NCBI RefSeq assembly: GCF_017468685.1
Contig: NZ_JAFUHT010000049.1
Location: forward strand, 1 to 56,222
Source: Methanobrevibacter sp.
GTDB taxonomy: Archaea > Methanobacteriota > Methanobacteria > Methanobacteriales > Methanobacteriaceae
DNA: 56,222 nt
Reading direction: 5' to 3'
Part shown: one piece after another, positions 10,481-31,809 of the stretch
Position numbering within the stretch: position 1 is the first letter of the stretch
How the letters are laid out: each line of letters opens with the position of its first letter
Program-made: the position numbers and the translations under genes
Notes under the pieces: model-generated
What the model was told of the DNA's origin: nothing
The model's input: the letters and a program-made list of their open reading frames with translations, nothing else
Databases searched by the model: none

Positions 10481-11404
10481 ATGGCTTGGGATGACAAAGC
10501 AACAAAAGTATGGGTAGATGGTGAATTCGTAGAATGGAAAGATGCAAATATATCAGTACTCTCACACGTAGTTCACTATGGAACAAGTGTATTTGAAGGT
10601 ATAAGAGCATACTCAAATGAAAAAGGAGTAGCTGTATACCGTCTTGAAGAACATGTCCAAAGATTATTTGACTCAGCAAAAATATACAAAATGGACATAC
10701 CATTCACTCAAGAGGAAATTGCAGAAGCAATACTTGAAACAGTTCGCATAAATGGCCTAAACGGATGTTACATCCGTCCAATAGTATTTAGAGGATATGG
10801 AGAACTTGGAGTAAACCCATTAGGATGTCCTGTTAATGTTGCAATTGCTGCATGGGAATGGGGATCATATCTTGGTGAAGAAGGAATGGAAAACGGAGTA
10901 GACATTGGTGTATCATCATGGAGAAAACCGGCACCGGACACTTTCCCTACACTTGCAAAATGTGGAGCAAACTACATGAACTCACAACTTGCAAAACTCG
11001 AAGCAATCGACAACGGATTTGATGAAGCAATCATGCTTGACTATGAAGGACACGTTTCAGAAGGAAGTGGAGAAAACATATTCTTAGTTGAAGGAGAAAC
11101 ATTACACACTCCTACAATGGCATCATCTAACCTCAGAGGAATTACAAGAGACTCCATCATGACTATCGCTCGTGATTTAGGCTATGAAGTAGTTGAAGAA
11201 ACAATCTCAAGAGAAAGATTATACATTGCAGATGAAGTATTCTTCACAGGAACTGCAGCTGAAGTAACTCCAATCCGTTCAATCGATCACAGAACAATAG
11301 GAATCGGAAAAAGAGGGCCTGTCTCAGAAAAAATACAAAAAGCATTCTTTGATATTGTAGAAGCTAAAGTAGAAGACAAATATGATTGGTTAACTTACAT
11401 CTAA
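10481..11404 (+). CDS. ilvE: Branched-chain amino acid aminotransferase
   Basis: IlvE is a fold-type IV PLP aminotransferase that makes Ile, Leu and Val from their 2-oxo acids with glutamate. The 307-residue length is typical. Visible motifs are [13 protein letters not shown] near residue 31, the PLP-lysine region [15 protein letters not shown] near residue 155, and the cofactor-binding [12 protein letters not shown] and [28 protein letters not shown] fits the start. The next gene, uppP, begins 12 bases after the stop, so the two are probably cotranscribed although functionally unrelated. Confidence 0.95.
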
Positions 11405-11416
11405 GCGGTGTAGAAT

Positions 11417-12250
11417 ATGGATATACTTCAGGGAATTATTATCGGCATAGTTCAGGGATTGACTGAATTCCTGCCGGTCAGTAGTTCAGCGCACTTAGTT
11501 TTTATTCAAAATCTTTTAGGTGTTGAAAGCTCTCTTGCTTTCGATACATTCCTTCACTTAGGAACCTTAATAGCAGTATTGTGGTTTTTCAGGTATGATA
11601 TTTACAAAATGCTTAAATCATGGTGGTTAAGTATTGGAGATATCTTGCAAGGAAGATTTAAGGAAGGCTTTTACGATGACCCTTACAAGAGACTTGCATG
11701 GTATGTAATTCTTGCAACAGTTCCTGTCGGCATTGTTGGAGTGCTGTTTGAAGACTCTGTAGATGCATTGTTTGCAGGTGCATTATATGTTCCGGCTTTC
11801 TTTTTGTTTGTAACAGGTACTATTTTGTATTTGTCTCAAAGAATGACCAGCGGTGAGATAAATTACAATACAATAACTAAAAAAGAAGCATTATTCATGG
11901 GACTGGGTCAAGCTTGTGCAATATTGCCTGGACTTTCACGTTCAGGTACAACAATCGCAGCAGGTTTAACAATAGGTCTTGATAAGGAATTTGCAGCAAA
12001 ATTCAGTTTTATATTATCAATTCCTGCGATTTTCGGTGCATTCGTATTACAACTAAAAGATATAGGTTCTGCATTGGATGTAAACTTCCTTCCGGTATTT
12101 TTAGGTTTTATTGCAGCTATTATTGCAGGATACTTGGCTATCAAGTGGATGCTTGACTTGATACAGAATAGAAGCTTGGATATTTTTGCATATTATTGCT
12201 GGTTGATGGGTATAATAGTATTTATGGGTTCAATTGCCCATATATTCTAA
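11417..12250 (+). CDS. uppP: Undecaprenyl-diphosphatase
   Basis: UppP (BacA) dephosphorylates undecaprenyl diphosphate to recycle the lipid carrier used for wall and glycan precursors. The 277-residue membrane protein shows both active-site motifs: LTEFLPVSSSAHLV near residue 15 (catalytic Glu and Ser) and LPGLSRSGTTIAAGLTIG near residue 174 (catalytic Arg). About eight hydrophobic segments are visible. Methanogens with pseudomurein use undecaprenyl-linked intermediates, so it fits with the flippase (4811) and the Mur-type ligases (20000-22886). GGTG precedes the ATG at normal distance. Confidence 0.94.
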   Translation: MDILQGIIIGIVQGLTEFLPVSSSAHLVFIQNLLGVESSLAFDTFLHLGTLIAVLWFFRYDIYKMLKSWWLSIGDILQGRFKEGFYDDPYKRLAWYVILATVPVGIVGVLFEDSVDALFAGALYVPAFFLFVTGTILYLSQRMTSGEINYNTITKKEALFMGLGQACAILPGLSRSGTTIAAGLTIGLDKEFAAKFSFILSIPAIFGAFVLQLKDIGSALDVNFLPVFLGFIAAIIAGYLAIKWMLDLIQNRSLDIFAYYCWLMGIIVFMGSIAHIF

Positions 12251-12285
12251 ATTATATCTTTTCTTTTTTTAAAAAACAGATTTAA

Positions 12286-12408
12286 AAATATTAATATAAA
12301 GTTAGAAAGATTCTAACTTAATATTAAACCCCTATAATTAATAAGTTATAACAAATAATTTCTTCTAGAATACATTCAGTTATTTTGATGTTATATATAT
12401 TTTTGGAT
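12286..12408 (-). repeat. Copy 1 of a ~125-base repeat, candidate minus-strand small RNA
   Basis: This copy shares two blocks with 12493-12625. One is TTAATATAAAGTTAGAA-AGA-TTCTAAC, whose 7-bp hairpin is at 12301-12317. The other is TTATATATATTTTTGGATA at 12391-12409. Read on the minus strand, the second block is a BRE/TATA (CCAAAAATATATATAA). A conserved GAATGTA lies about 25 bases downstream (12371-12377), as expected for a start site. The hairpin followed by T-rich DNA would end a transcript of about 90 bases. A plus-strand reading (TATA TTAATATAAA, then an operator) is also possible. Confidence 0.5.
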
Positions 12409-12492
12409 ACAATCCGAGAGTTAAAAAACTAACTACATGATATTTTAGAATAAGTAATGTATTAAACTATATTGTTATCAAAAATAGATTTT

Positions 12493-12625
12493 AAATGTTA
12501 ATATAAAGTTAGAAAGATTCTAACTCAATATTAACTCCCCATAAATTTAACAAGTATTACAGAAAAATTCTTGTAACATTTGTACATTCCTTTATTTGTT
12601 TTATTGTTATATATATTTTTGGATA
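12493..12625 (-). repeat. Copy 2 of the ~125-base repeat, candidate minus-strand small RNA
   Basis: It has the same architecture as copy 1: hairpin GTTAGAAAGATTCTAAC at 12508-12524, TATA block at 12607-12625 and GAATGTA (minus) at 12583-12589. The middle diverges between copies but keeps a C/G block (CCCCATAAATT at 12537-12547; in copy 1 AACCCCTATAATTAA). That block is complementary to the leader of the small ORF at 12705-12788. An internal imperfect hairpin (TTACAGAAAAATTCTTGTAA) is present only here. Confidence 0.5.
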
Positions 12626-12704
12626 TGTATCTGAAAGCAGAAAATCTTACCAAAAGTTAAATTCTAAACTTTAAATTTTTTGTCGTTCAACTACGGTTAC
12701 ATTT

Positions 12705-12788
12705 TTAGCAAAATTTTTCTATAATGATGGTGATGAGTCGTAATAAGGTTATTATTAATATGATTAATAATTCTGTCTTTTTACTCAA
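12705..12788 (-). CDS. Small hydrophobic peptide ORF, candidate membrane toxin or small membrane protein
   Basis: A 27-codon ORF that starts with TTG (12786-12788). The peptide has a charged N-terminus (MSKKTE), a Leu/Ile-rich transmembrane stretch of about 17 residues with a single Arg, then EKFC at the end. AAGGTGAT (12793-12800) lies 4 bases before the start, the same SD geometry as the ferredoxin gene. A TATA-like stretch (minus AAAAATTATATATTATATG) lies ~100 bases upstream. Size and composition resemble type I toxins and small holin-like peptides, but AT-rich DNA yields Ile/Leu-rich ORFs by chance, so coding is not proven. The leader is complementary to the two repeat copies at 12286-12625. 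Confidence 0.45.
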   Translation of the reverse strand: MSKKTELLIILIITLLRLITIIIEKFC

Positions 12789-13036
12789 ATTAATCACCTT
12801 TTAATTTATGGGGTTGATTTAATTTTCAGCAAGCAAAAGCTTTTAGGACTAGTTCAATTGTATATTATGTATCATATAATATATAATTTTTCTATTTATC
12901 AATTTTAAACTCTTTAAACTGTATAATATTGTTTTTACTTCGTTTTTTACATTAAAAAAGAAATATTGTAATCATTGTAAAAAATTTAAGTAATTGTGTT
13001 AAAACAAGTAAATGATGGTTAATATAAAAATAAGAG

Positions 13037-13057
13037 TAGAGATTAAATAAATCTCTA
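13037..13057 (-). terminator. cobT terminator
   Basis: The 8-bp inverted repeat TAGAGATT/AATCTCTA overlaps the minus-strand stop codon of cobT and is followed by T-rich sequence on that strand. Confidence 0.65.
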
Positions 13058-14119
13058 TTTGCAAACTTTTTCGATTTTTTTTCTTAATCTTTCAACGGAA
13101 TTTCCCAAAACCAGTGCAGTATACATTGCGCCGCCGGCACCTGCACCTTCCTTGACAAATCCTTTCAGGTAGTTTTTCAATCCTTCATGTTCTGATTCTT
13201 CAAACCTTGGATCAACCACGTTCACAGTGATATTGTCGTCAATTTGGTTTAAAATGCCAAATAAATCAGCGGTTTCATCAGCGGCTACAAATACGGTTGT
13301 TGCAAGATTTATTCTTGAAAAGTCAAATGTTGGTTGAATCGATTTGATAACAGCACAGGTTGCAGCCATTTGTGTTCCTCCAGCTAAAATAATTGGAATG
13401 TCTGATCCAATAACTAATCCTGCAATTGCCGGAATAGTAGGATCTCCTACTGCACCGATTGCCTGCATTGCATCAGCCTCTCCAGGTTTTATTCCTGCAT
13501 TTTCAAGTCCTTCATTTACGGTTTTTGACTTTAAATCATGAGGATTATGGGGCATGCTGCCGCTTACCTTCTCATTTGCTTCATAACCCAGTGCCTTTAG
13601 AACTCCAAGCGCTGTTGTTGTTCCTGCAGCGATACTTTCACCAATAATTAGCATTTCATGTCTTTGTGACAGTTCATTACCTAAATCCTTTGCATTTTCA
13701 AAGATTTCCAATGGGTTAAGAACACCTTTTCCGGTTCTTATGTCTCTTCCGTATTCGCTGCCCAAATTAACGTATTCGACGTCAGGTTTGATTTTTGATC
13801 CTGCATCAACTATTACAAAGGGGGTTTCTGAAACTTGAAGTGCTGCTTTTGTAAGTCTTGCAGGAGTTGGTGCTGCTGCATCTCCAACTACAGTTTCTGC
13901 AGGTGCTTCACAGCATCTTACTTCTCCCAATACCATAAATTCAGCATCACTTGCAGGTGTGTATTCGGTCAGGTCGGCTGAGGGTCCTGCCCCTGAAATT
14001 CCTTCTATTAATGAGGTTTCTGTAGTGCCTATTGTAAGTAAGAATACAGCTTCATCTTCCACTTCTTGCAATTTTTCTGTTAATTCACTTGAGCCGTATG
14101 TTGTTACACCATCAATCAT
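13055..14119 (-). CDS. cobT: Archaeal CobT: nicotinate mononucleotide-dependent phosphoribosyltransferase (UPF0284 type)
   Basis: This family activates the lower ligand base (or alpha-ribazole precursor) in cobamide assembly. Methanogens need cobamides for Mtr. The 354-residue length matches. Supporting motifs are FLLTIGTTETSLIEGISGAGP, ADLTEYTPASDAEFM, IVDAGSKIKPDVEY, GESIAAGTTTALGVL, GDPTIPAIAGL and ILAGGTQMAA, in that order and typical of the archaeal branch. I choose ATG 14119: AAGGTGA lies 5 bases before it. The GTG at 14128 is part of that SD. The start overlaps the stop of the upstream gene at 14112 by 8 bases, so translation is coupled. Confidence 0.88.
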   Translation of the reverse strand: MIDGVTTYGSSELTEKLQEVEDEAVFLLTIGTTETSLIEGISGAGPSADLTEYTPASDAEFMVLGEVRCCEAPAETVVGDAAAPTPARLTKAALQVSETPFVIVDAGSKIKPDVEYVNLGSEYGRDIRTGKGVLNPLEIFENAKDLGNELSQRHEMLIIGESIAAGTTTALGVLKALGYEANEKVSGSMPHNPHDLKSKTVNEGLENAGIKPGEADAMQAIGAVGDPTIPAIAGLVIGSDIPIILAGGTQMAATCAVIKSIQPTFDFSRINLATTVFVAADETADLFGILNQIDDNITVNVVDPRFEESEHEGLKNYLKGFVKEGAGAGGAMYTALVLGNSVERLRKKIEKVCK

Positions 14120-14612
14120 TGTTTTCACCTTGTTTTTTCAATAAATCTATAATTATCTTATTTTGGTTAATAATCTTTTTGTTTTGAAGCATGATTTTCT
14201 TTAACATTTCTTCTTGTGTCAATTCATTGTCGGTTTTAAATGTCTGACCGTCTCTTGCTCTTGCAGGGATTCTTATTTGTTCTTTTGGAGGTAACTTATC
14301 ACTGTCCCCTTTTGGTGGAATAACTCCTCTGGAAGCGCTGTCCTCTTTTGAGACAAAATCCACATATCTGTGTGTCACCTTGTTTTTTCCACGTTCATCT
14401 AAAAGCTCCATCAATCTGTTGTCAACATTTTCAACACCAACCAACTCTTCCTGCTCCACTTCATGAATCAATCGTTTCTGAATGTTGTATGCATTGTAAA
14501 TTGGTATTCCTCGTGTTTTGCATTCGTTTTTAAACATGTCGTGGATGTTGATGTCACCGGTTAGCTGTTTCACTCTTTTTTGTTCTAAAGTATTAGCACT
14601 ATAAAATCCCAT
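14112..14612 (-). CDS. Uncharacterised protein translationally coupled to cobT
   Basis: I do not recognise this 166-residue protein. It is highly charged with no signal peptide or membrane segment. Residues 1-110 look globular (VDNRLMELLDERGKNKVTHRYVDF is mostly helical). A Pro-rich stretch (PPKGDSDKLPPKEQIRIPARARDG) follows, then a C-terminal coiled coil (EEMLKKIMLQNKKIINQNKIIIDLLKK). Its stop overlaps the cobT start by 8 bases. An SD (AAAGTGA) precedes its ATG. Coupling to cobT suggests a role near cobamide synthesis, or simple cotranscription; the sequence itself gives no function. Confidence 0.75.
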   Translation of the reverse strand: MGFYSANTLEQKRVKQLTGDINIHDMFKNECKTRGIPIYNAYNIQKRLIHEVEQEELVGVENVDNRLMELLDERGKNKVTHRYVDFVSKEDSASRGVIPPKGDSDKLPPKEQIRIPARARDGQTFKTDNELTQEEMLKKIMLQNKKIINQNKIIIDLLKKQGENND

Positions 14613-29754: not shown

Positions 29755-30336
29755 ATGGATATTGAGTATATTAAGAATAATTACAAATTTGAAACTTTGA
29801 CTTGTGAACATGATGTCTCTGGATTTGAAAGTGAATCTGAAGATTTAAACGAGTTTCTAAAAAACGATGCATTGAACCTTAAAATGATAAATTGAGCATT
29901 ACAAAATTAATCACCTGTGATAATGAACTTGTTGGTTATGTTTCTCTTTTGACGGATTCAATTCCTTTAAAAGATATTCGTGATGATAATCTTAAAAAGG
30001 ATATTAAAAAACAGTTAAATATTATAATAAAAAGAAAAAATTACCTGCAATTAAAATAGGGCGGTTAGCTATTGATAAGAAATATTCTAATGAAGGATTA
30101 GGTTCTGATGTGTTGGTGAATATTCTTTTCAATATTAAAAATATCGCTGAGACAAGTGTTGGCTTGTGGTTTGTTACGGTAGATGGCTATGCAAAAGCTT
30201 ATAAGTTCTATGTTGATTATAATTTTGTTAATTTGAAAAAAGATGACGAAAAATTGAGAAAAAACTAGATACAATTATAGAACGAAATCCTAATCAAACA
30301 TTCCTCTTGTATCTAGATTTAAAAAAACTAGAATAA
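29755..30336 (+). pseudogene. GNAT-family N-acetyltransferase, broken by frameshifts
   Basis: Three open segments in different frames add up to one GNAT protein of ~190 residues. The first starts at ATG 29755 (MDIEYIKNNYKFETL, FLKNDALN) and stops near 29895. The second carries LSITKLITCDNELVGYVSLL. The third holds the acetyl-CoA core (IKIGRLAIDKKYSNEGLG, then VTVDGYAKAYKFYVDYNF). A further one-base slip near 30265 rejoins a tail (TIIERNPNQTFLLYLDLKKLE) ending at 30336. Three single-base indels mean the gene is inactive unless there are sequencing errors. Small GNAT proteins of this type can be toxins; the neighbour at 30328 is compatible with that. Confidence 0.8.
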
Positions 30337-30549: not shown

Positions 30550-31809
30550 TTAGGCCATACCTACTGTTTCGTCAAAGCATTTCCATTCATAAGTATATAT
30601 GAATTCTCCTTGACTAGTAGGCATGAAATCTACTAAGCATAGCACTATTGAACCAGTAGCGCGTACACCTTCGTCTAAAATATTTTTTGCCGCATTAACA
30701 TCTCTTGATAGGATGCTGTGGCAGTGTGGGCATTCCCATTCTCTTTCATCACGACCTAGACTATGATTTATTTCACCACAGACATTACATTTTTTACTGG
30801 AAGGGAACCATCGATCGATTTGTATAAATTCACGTCCATACCATCGTGCTTTGTATCGTATCATTTCAATGAGTTTTCCCCATCCGATTTCATGAATGCT
30901 TCTACTTAAATTACGTGAACGTATCATTCCCTTTATGTTTAGAGTCTCCATTGCTATGAATTTACAGTGTTTAACGATATTGTAGGATATTTTATGATAA
31001 TAATCGTTTACTACATTGTTTTTCTTGTTCTGCCATTTGTGGAGTTTTCGTAGGGTTTTTTTCCAGTTGGATCCGCCTTCTTTTTGACGTGAAAGTTTTT
31101 GTTGGTAATATTGTATTCTTCCGTTTATTCTTTTCAAATCAGGTTTAGATATGACTTTTCCGTTGGAAAAAGTTAGGAAGTCTGTTAATCCAACATCAAT
31201 GCCGACGTATAACTCTGGTGTGGAGAATTTTTCTCTTGGATGTATTTTTTCTAGTTCGTAGACTATGCAAACGAACCATTTTCCATTTTCTTTTAGGATA
31301 GTGGCTTCTTTGATTTTACCATCAATGTCACGTTTATATTTAACTTCAATGTATCCTAATTTGTTTAAACGTAATCGGTTGTCTTCCCATCGTATTGACT
31401 CTTTAATTCCGTCTTTGGTAGGATATTCGTTGTTTCTGATTGTAATGGATCCTACGGGATTGTCTTTAAGAGATTTGAATTTAGGACGTCCACTTCTTCC
31501 ACTATAGTATCCTTCATAGGCTTTTATTAGGCGGTCGGTGGATGCTTGTATGCAGGTGGATTCTGCTTTTTTAAGGAATTGTTTTTGTTTTTTTAGATTT
31601 TTAACAATTTTTTGTGTGTATGTGCGGTTGACTTTAGAGTTTTTGCCTATTGCAAATTCTTTGACTAGGTTTTCACGGTAAATACTGTATTCTAATGTTT
31701 TGTTGAATACATAACCTGTGGCACGCAAATTGAAATTTAATTCCCCTTCTAAATCCTCATCAGGGACAAACTCAATCTTATCAGTTAAAATAAAACTCTT
31801 ATCAACCAT
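30550..31809 (-). CDS. tnpB: TnpB, RNA-guided endonuclease of the IS200/IS605 family
   Basis: A 419-residue OrfB/TnpB protein. The RuvC catalytic residues appear in order: Asp in YVGIDVGLTDF near 205, Glu in AMETLNIKGM near 295, and Asp in HSILSRDVNAAKNI near 372. The four-Cys zinc ribbon CNVCGEIN...CPHCH separates the last two. The N-terminal region (RATGYVFNKTLEYSIYREN) and SGRPKFKSL are family-typical. TnpB is a transposon-encoded nuclease guided by an RNA from the element's right end. The frame is intact, so it may be active. No tnpA is adjacent. The start is ATG 31809. Confidence 0.92.
   Translation of the reverse strand: MVDKSFILTDKIEFVPDEDLEGELNFNLRATGYVFNKTLEYSIYRENLVKEFAIGKNSKVNRTYTQKIVKNLKKQKQFLKKAESTCIQASTDRLIKAYEGYYSGRSGRPKFKSLKDNPVGSITIRNNEYPTKDGIKESIRWEDNRLRLNKLGYIEVKYKRDIDGKIKEATILKENGKWFVCIVYELEKIHPREKFSTPELYVGIDVGLTDFLTFSNGKVISKPDLKRINGRIQYYQQKLSRQKEGGSNWKKTLRKLHKWQNKKNNVVNDYYHKISYNIVKHCKFIAMETLNIKGMIRSRNLSRSIHEIGWGKLIEMIRYKARWYGREFIQIDRWFPSSKKCNVCGEINHSLGRDEREWECPHCHSILSRDVNAAKNILDEGVRATGSIVLCLVDFMPTSQGEFIYTYEWKCFDETVGMA

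Follow-up and report, generated by a model that had tools for sequence, protein, structure and literature searches.

Does the chromosome of a methanogenic archaeon encode a type I toxin-antitoxin (TA) module, with a small hydrophobic peptide controlled by an antisense RNA? The question is raised by a minus-strand locus in a 56,222-nt contig of Methanobrevibacter sp. (NZ_JAFUHT010000049.1; this whole stretch is referred to as the window), where an earlier inspection of the letters, here called the sequence-only reading, had proposed two small RNA (sRNA) genes complementary to the leader of a short open reading frame (ORF). Comparison with related genomes suggests that the locus is probably a chromosomal type I TA-like module with a same-strand layout. 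The type I-like reading is supported by an ORF conserved as a protein in 14 modules and by a complementary block in which 12 of 12 pairs have changed in a compensatory way; both had been named beforehand as its tests.

In the window, the two direct-repeat copies are present as described (a 52-nt part 90% identical at a spacing of 207, and a 40-nt part 83% identical at a spacing of 216), each of which reads on the minus strand as a TATA-like box, a spacer and then a hairpin with a T-rich stretch behind it. The 11-nt complement (AATTTATGGGG / CCCCATAAATT) is exact and lies inside a 14-nt arm pair that is 93% complementary (12537-12550 with 12800-12813). The 27-codon hydrophobic ORF, MSKKTELLIILIITLLRLITIIIEKFC, occupies 12705-12788 (-) with a TTG start and matches the peptide profile at E = 1.2e-11, its own sequence being part of that profile. 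The antisense target block CCCCATAAATTA (12802-12813, -), paired with sRNA copy 2 at 11 of 12 positions and covarying in the family, ends 3 nt before the GGTG of the Shine-Dalgarno (SD) sequence, which agrees with its supposed place a few bases upstream. Two points had to be adjusted. An antisense RNA at the ribosome-binding site had been envisaged; the leader pairing stands, but it covers about 12 nt immediately upstream of the SD instead of the SD itself. The small RNAs had been called twins; both copies exist, with copy 2 alone well matched and copy 1 looking like a decayed duplicate of it, whose imperfect fit to the same site had been recognized (duplex energy -17.2 vs -23.0 kcal/mol for copy 2).

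A search for the repeat beside the ORF, as the sequence-only reading had suggested, was made in a genus sample of 67 genomes, the window's own included. DNA and peptide-profile searches yielded 14 complete modules in 12 of the 67 Methanobrevibacter genomes. Each module, about 380 nt long, consists of a leader, an SD, a hydrophobic ORF of 24-27 aa and an sRNA unit comprising an archaeal-type promoter, a 5′ hairpin, an antisense block and a terminator hairpin. The spacing is shared, with a leader of 64-67 nt, the ORF, 70-82 nt to a palindrome/TATA unit and then the sRNA, and the sRNA unit and ORF lie on the same strand in 14/14 modules.

Leader and sRNA are complementary throughout the family. 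The leader block comprises the 12 bases after a conserved TAAATCA-like anchor and ends 2-6 nt before GGTG, while its sRNA partner lies 8-12 nt before an AGTTAG-like part of the terminator stem. Cognate blocks pair at 161 of 168 positions, even though leaders differ from one another at an average of 6.3 of the 12 block positions. With the best available register allowed to cognate and swapped pairs alike, the cognate sRNA was best or tied for all 14 leaders and uniquely best for 10 (0/200000 permutations); the mean longest Watson-Crick run was 12.2 nt for cognate vs 6.5 for swapped pairs. Duplex prediction, another of the checks proposed at the outset, gave a mean energy of -19.3 for cognate vs -10.7 for swapped pairs, and 0/100000 permutations reached the cognate sum. 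Covariation was scored on 13 distinct blocks (that of L011a, identical to the block of L009a, was dropped): 94.2% of cells are paired, 12/12 pairs are changed on both sides, pairing falls to 41-52% when the block is slid by one to three bases, and the covariation score is 0.782 vs 0.252 when shuffled and 0.09-0.20 when slid. Shuffles averaged 7.5/12 pairs changed on both sides, with 1/500 reaching 12; for the other four measures the figure was 0/500. Parsimony on a tree inferred from the ORF, the post-ORF region and the sRNA promoter, with the blocks left out and shown without support values, counted 44 Watson-Crick to Watson-Crick double changes vs 10 others. The covariation and parsimony counts lean towards pairing because cognate-best registers were used, and the double-change count is lowered because MAFFT shifted two rows (L013, L145). 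Genome G059 holds three coexisting modules with different matched blocks, whose cognate energies are -14.7, -16.8 and -16.1 vs -5.4 to -12.2 for the six cross pairs. The alignments indicate that the sRNA/leader complementarity is maintained by selection. One defining element of type I systems is a non-coding antitoxin RNA whose sequence complements the mRNA of the toxin; here the complementarity covaries in 14/14 modules, with a predicted RNA on one side.

The ORF behaves as a gene. Across the 14 modules the peptide has 24-27 aa, a net charge of +1 to +4 and a core mean hydrophobicity of 0.46-0.75, and starts with ATG in 8 and TTG in 6. Over codons 2-24 the mean proportion of synonymous differences (pS) is 0.53 and that of nonsynonymous differences (pN) 0.20, with pN below pS in 91/91 pairs; the ratio of 0.39 is conservative because synonymous constraint lowers pS. 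The substitution pattern indicates that the ORF is a real coding gene under purifying selection, and in size, hydrophobicity and conservation as a protein the peptide corresponds to the small (<60 aa) hydrophobic toxin of type I systems. It probably inserts into the membrane. An amphipathic helix was considered and is not relied on, given that the hydrophobic moment exceeds the shuffled mean in 14/14 peptides with p < 0.05 in 4/14 alone. A Pfam search with three of the peptides returned no match.

RNAalifold on the mRNA alignment predicts that the SD GGUGA and the start-region UGAGU are closed by the ORF-internal ACUCAUCACC. In the window, the SD GGTGA lies at 12794-12798 (-), its GGTG being present in 14/14 modules, and the anti-SD ACTCATCACC at 12729-12738 (-), formed by codons 18-20 together with the final base of codon 17 and complementary to both GGTGA and the start-region TGAGT. 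The SD/anti-SD helices are paired in 100% and 97.1% of cells, and the whole structure in 31-51% when slid. The lock codons are conserved as CTC ATC ACC: Leu18 is CTC in 12/14 modules and in 0/75 other Leu codons (p 4e-13), and Ile19 is ATC in 13/14 vs 9/82 elsewhere (p 2e-9), by Fisher tests that treat related codons as independent. Codon usage thus indicates that the anti-SD codons are under synonymous constraint. SD sequestration, a frequent though not universal feature of type I systems, is predicted here at codons 17-20 on the basis of conservation, with hardly any covariation.

The rest of the mRNA may contribute to this closure. The 5′ leader (12789-12855, -; aligned across 14 modules) contains a GAACTAGTCC palindrome, a AAAGCTTTTGCTTGC element, the antisense target and the SD, and the conserved post-ORF region (12629-12704, -) is complementary to the leader element. 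The leader/3′-region helices are paired in 96.8% and 91.7% of cells; the cognate vs swapped comparison is weak (z -2.3, p = 0.010), with double changes in 2/15 pairs. We regard the 5′-3′ long-distance pairing as possible, because this covariation is thin. The palindrome probably marks the 5′ end of the peptide mRNA, and a TATA-like box, TTATATAT (12879-12886, -), which starts 31 nt before it and has AT-rich TATA-like counterparts at the equivalent place in other modules, is the candidate promoter. The arms of the palindrome at 12846-12855 (-) and of its relatives vary together (GACTAGTC, GGACTTGTCC, GGTTAACC, GGCCTAGGCC, GACCGGTC), perhaps because they form a short hairpin at the 5′ end or mediate contact in a dimer.

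The sRNA unit has the parts expected of a separate gene. The putative promoter of copy 2 (12607-12631, -; aligned across 14 modules) comprises a degenerate TGATACGTATCA palindrome, an A-rich stretch resembling a B recognition element (BRE) and a TATA box at 12607-12614. The cognate antisense RNA itself is placed at 12479-12592 (-), ends approximate, with the 5′ hairpin SL1, the block at 12537-12548 and the terminator hairpin SL2 at 12498-12534; the covariance model matches 12479-12631 at E = 2.7e-11, this sequence being in the model. Copy 1 (12272-12414, -), which has no peptide ORF of its own and is not in the model, matches at E = 8.2e-5. Folding gives the order 5′ hairpin, antisense block, terminator hairpin, and the block is mostly unpaired (7-10/12) in 9/14 folds. 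SL1, obtained by single-sequence folding with an assumed 5′ end, has an energy below shuffled sequence in 13/14 (mean z -2.5; L017 has a positive z), and RNAalifold on the sRNA alignment recovered the terminator hairpin alone, with no double changes. The exact 15-base form TGATACGTATCANAA, the only form searched for, occurs 11 times in the 67 genomes, 11/11 at matches or promoters of the sRNA model R1; the window carries an inexact form. The TGATACGTATCA palindrome, immediately upstream of the TATA box of the sRNA, is possibly the site of a dedicated regulator, and promoter and terminator are assigned their functions from sequence features. Rfam returned for 11400-13200 a single match, snoR28 on the plus strand at E = 2.3, below the gathering threshold and thus nothing credible, and 0 matches at E <= 0.5 for four relative loci. 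At L158 (G056:C4, ~29988-30032), a hairpin like the sRNA terminator (AAAGTTAG...CTAACTTT) directly follows an unrelated gene, so the sRNA terminator stem may double as an ordinary terminator.

Applied to the 67 genomes of the genus, the covariance model found 23 copies in 17 of them: the 14 used to build it, one after a leaderless ORF in G013, and 8 without any ORF, so that the sRNA unit behaves as a gene of its own. Three sRNA-only copies sit at the site after a gene we take to be hdrA (G055:C1:96870-97015, G054:C3:555-697, G010:C29:748-878) and are decayed to different degrees, as if the toxin had been lost first and the antitoxin were decaying later. Two more (G013:C46:61718-61858, L181; G014:C26:4764-4904, L173) are near identical and keep TATA box and terminator hairpin after an unrelated gene, presumably AzlD-like; they may have a different target or represent antitoxins without a partner. 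Copy 1 of the window is the sixth. At G043:C190 the contig starts 92 nt upstream and the post-ORF region is absent, and the second copy of G056:C47 lacks the promoter part. The sole peptide-only locus found is L147 (G043:C204; E 0.014), where the peptide has diverged and the sRNA region is disrupted. The ratio of sRNA-only to peptide-only loci is 8:1 (two-sided p 0.039), or 7:1 (two-sided binomial 0.07, calculated by hand) when the near-identical G013:C46 and G014:C26 are taken as one; small as the number is, the asymmetry fits a product that is harmful alone.

The family was delimited by several searches. A DNA search of the genus gave matches in 25 genomes at E <= 0.001, some by chance, and several of these run over leader, ORF and sRNA. 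A peptide profile built from 11 peptides matched 15 ORFs at E < 1e-5 in 12/67 genomes. Four of the 15 were new to the profile, each with a downstream sRNA bearing its own matching block; the DNA search had hit two of those four loci (G059:C4, G056:C47) before. Family-wide (138 genomes, 17 genera), profile matches were confined to the window's genus, and phylum-wide (151 genomes, 20 genera) there were none in the 19 other genera. In viral contigs screened with the peptide profile, 69 stretches fitted a pattern and 0 were confirmed. Peptide matches were inspected down to E 0.02; four weak ones (G003:C13, G059:C72, G065:C105, G048:C3; E 0.014-0.019) were rejected, 4/4 having internal stops and none the module layout. 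Four of the non-module DNA matches (G012:C16, G056:C4, G059:C9 and G043:C3) were inspected and proved to be hairpin-like or repeat matches. The tests on 14 modules omit L147, where no sRNA was found, and the second ORF of L011 in G013, which has lost its leader and has no target block. This tandem second ORF (G013:C56:66601-66678) lacks leader and SD while its sRNA is still present, and the leader was apparently lost by recombination between neighbouring modules.

The genomic position of the modules is partly shared. Seven of the 14 (L011a, L012, L016, L017, L146, L150, L151) lie directly after hdrA, and four adjoin genes that border the hdrA site in relatives: L013 and L015 lie by a gene that we assume to be glyA, and L009a and L009b are next to the gene that comes after the module in G012. 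L145 is sited elsewhere. The window's genome and G044 hold a module at the uppP site and have empty hdrA sites; the uppP site is empty in L041, and in L039 the terminator hairpin alone remains. The uppP and hdrA sites are thus variously occupied or empty, a patchy distribution in which modules have moved between sites or been gained or lost. In the window, the module lies between gene 11417-12250, which we take to be UppP-like, and the convergent gene 13055-14128, presumably UPF0284/CobT-like. Along its full length the former shares 95% identity with its counterpart in a bin labelled M. thaueri, and the contig is of Methanobrevibacter type. Elsewhere in the window, the ORF at 30550-31809 (-) resembles an IS605-type TnpB/OrfB, and no TnpA-like neighbour was noticed among ORFs of at least 100 aa.

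We propose the following mechanism. The mRNA would encode a cationic, hydrophobic peptide of 24-27 aa, probably membrane-inserting, with the anti-SD at codons 17-20 keeping the SD and start region shut and the leader/3′-region pairing perhaps closing them further. The neighbouring same-strand sRNA gene would yield, from its own promoter, an RNA of about 100 nt whose block of about 12 nt, lying between two hairpins, would pair just 5′ of the SD and stop ribosome loading, perhaps also triggering cleavage. A drop in the sRNA, or refolding or processing of the mRNA, would then allow the peptide to be made, and the cell would be harmed or stalled, most likely through the membrane. Of the two copies in the window, copy 2 would act as the antitoxin, copy 1 being its degenerate duplicate. 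That the ORF is coding and that leader and sRNA are complementary is established about as well as a comparison of genomes can establish it; transcription, the translational block, toxicity, its trigger and the biological role we infer. At the level of the family we lean, more guardedly than for the locus itself, towards an archaeal type I TA family with a same-strand tandem layout, a selected and diversifying antisense specificity, and several modules per genome with little cross-talk.

Several observations, however, weigh against these proposals. Duplex energy ranks the cognate pair best in 9/14 rows and 11/14 columns: the window leader reaches -19.0 with the L146 sRNA vs -18.1 with its own, L009a -15.9 with L150 vs -14.7, L145 -19.8 with L016 vs -16.1 and L151 -18.3 with L016 vs -17.5; the L011a leader ties with the L009a sRNA at -15.6, and the L012 leader comes to -24.0 with the window sRNA vs -24.3 with its own. 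For 9 dissimilar blocks, 1/200000 permutations equalled the observed sum, possibly the identity permutation. In 5/14 sRNA folds, 3/12 block bases are unpaired. The SD/anti-SD and 5′-3′ structure was derived from the same alignment used to test its pairing, and its helices show double changes in 2/25 pairs, which 133/500 shuffles reach. The loss asymmetry is drawn from 9 loci that different detectors picked up, and among the genomes searched the family is confined to one genus. The peptide's function is argued by analogy, because the three peptides searched match nothing in Pfam.

An alternative that we consider unlikely is that the sRNA tunes a useful, non-toxic stress or membrane peptide through the same RNA mechanism. 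The pairing and coding evidence is equally compatible with it, toxicity is a prediction, and 7/14 modules occupy one chromosomal place after hdrA, as a housekeeping gene might. A harmful product is favoured because it would be expected to give patchy presence (12/67 genomes), translation that is probably locked twice, modules that coexist while each keeps its own specificity, and the 8:1 ratio. That the peptide is a toxin we infer from the anatomy, the patchy presence and the loss asymmetry.

The RNA side of the TA reading has its own competitors. The supposed sRNA could be the 3′ untranslated region (UTR) of one long peptide mRNA, its block closing the start site in cis; the same strand and order in 14/14 modules suit this, and cis pairing would produce the same covariation. 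Against it, the sRNA part is immediately preceded by a conserved palindrome/TATA unit, and there are sRNA units without an upstream ORF, among them the near-identical G013:C46 and G014:C26 with TATA box and hairpin after an unrelated gene; we find this explanation improbable. More remote still is a mobile repeat resembling a miniature inverted-repeat transposable element (MITE), with hairpins and complementarity as by-products of inverted repeats. The repeat unit of about 140 nt does contain a hairpin and occurs twice in the window, and modules do lie at different chromosomal sites, but within its genome the repeat is confined to one locus (none of the other 43 matches exceeds 50 nt), the complementarity covaries and is specific to each locus, and the ORF is conserved as a protein. 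Least of all do we credit chance, an ORF-like stretch beside a fortuitous 11-nt complement. Short ORFs and matches are common in AT-rich intergenic sequence, and many short ORFs are listed here; conservation of 14 modules with compensatory changes refutes this explanation, and a fortuitous complement is excluded because relatives keep cognate pairing far above swapped pairing.

A type I-like module can be compared with several bacterial systems. In Hok/Sok and AapA1/IsoA1, the toxin mRNA is locked by SD sequestration and 5′-3′ pairing and encodes a small membrane peptide, and the antitoxin is transcribed from the opposite strand over the toxin gene; the archaeal sRNA, in contrast, would be a separate gene with short complementarity. 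The closest anatomical parallel above all appears to be dinQ of Escherichia coli with agrB and the degenerate agrA. In the accessible part of its description, DinQ is a 27-aa peptide with a single membrane span, comparable with the archaeal 24-27 aa, and an sRNA is complementary to the toxin RNA as in the archaeal module (PMC3567139). Its two sRNA copies are well matched (30/31) and degenerate (25/31), with a tandem duplication presumed by the authors (PMC3567139), and copy 1 of the window relates to copy 2 as AgrA to AgrB. The DinQ sRNAs run opposite to dinQ (PMC3567139), whereas the archaeal ones lie downstream on the same strand. The likeness is one of architecture, and the Methanobrevibacter module has archaeal-type promoters; DinQ toxicity is experimental, whereas the archaeal peptide is known from sequence.

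According to the sections available of a publication on them, the antitoxins of TisB/IstR-1, ShoB/OhsC and Zor/Orz pair with the toxin 5′ UTR; the tisB SD is shut within RNA structure, and a standby site is described at which IstR-1 and the ribosome compete (PMC4147584). In these sections the gene pairs are divergent and non-overlapping, unlike the same-strand archaeal module, and the TisB, ShoB and Zor loci have long 5′ UTRs, processed in tisB, vs an archaeal leader of 64-67 nt with its target 2-6 nt from the SD. Known type I systems had been restricted to Proteobacteria, Firmicutes and Tenericutes until a cyanobacterial case was added in 2025, as stated in the excerpted report (PMC12390103). 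That bacterial candidate, MsoT1/MsoA1 of Microcystis aeruginosa, extends type I beyond the earlier-known phyla; the portion of its description at hand presents no family-wide covariation, unlike that of the archaeal modules (PMC12390103). In Archaea, sRNA162 of Methanosarcina mazei likewise pairs with target mRNAs, but the passages available do not present it as a TA pair and mention type I once, in comparison with a bacterial case (PMC3510493). General discussions of archaeal TA systems contain, in the extracts consulted, no archaeal type I case (PMC6563280, PMC12654330), and none was found among the matches listed in searches of open-licence literature. As far as the text returned by those searches shows, the archaeal type I family is undescribed. 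The type I search of TAfinder 2.0 / TADB 3.0 requires, in the part of its description available, that the toxin gene and the RNA antitoxin be encoded on opposite strands (PMC10767807); in 14/14 archaeal modules the two share a strand.

Together, the proposed modules would mean, if the interpretation is true, that RNA control of membrane peptides by SD locking and a leader-blocking RNA arose in, or reached, Archaea, and an archaeal family with family-wide covariation would carry the type I kind into another domain. It would also show that searches demanding opposite strands, as described in the accessible text of the tool, miss a whole layout (PMC10767807). The 14 natural sRNA/target pairs make swapping an experimentally easy case, and the family would offer a candidate growth inhibitor native to methanogens together with a clean system in which to study how sRNAs of Archaea exert control at the SD.
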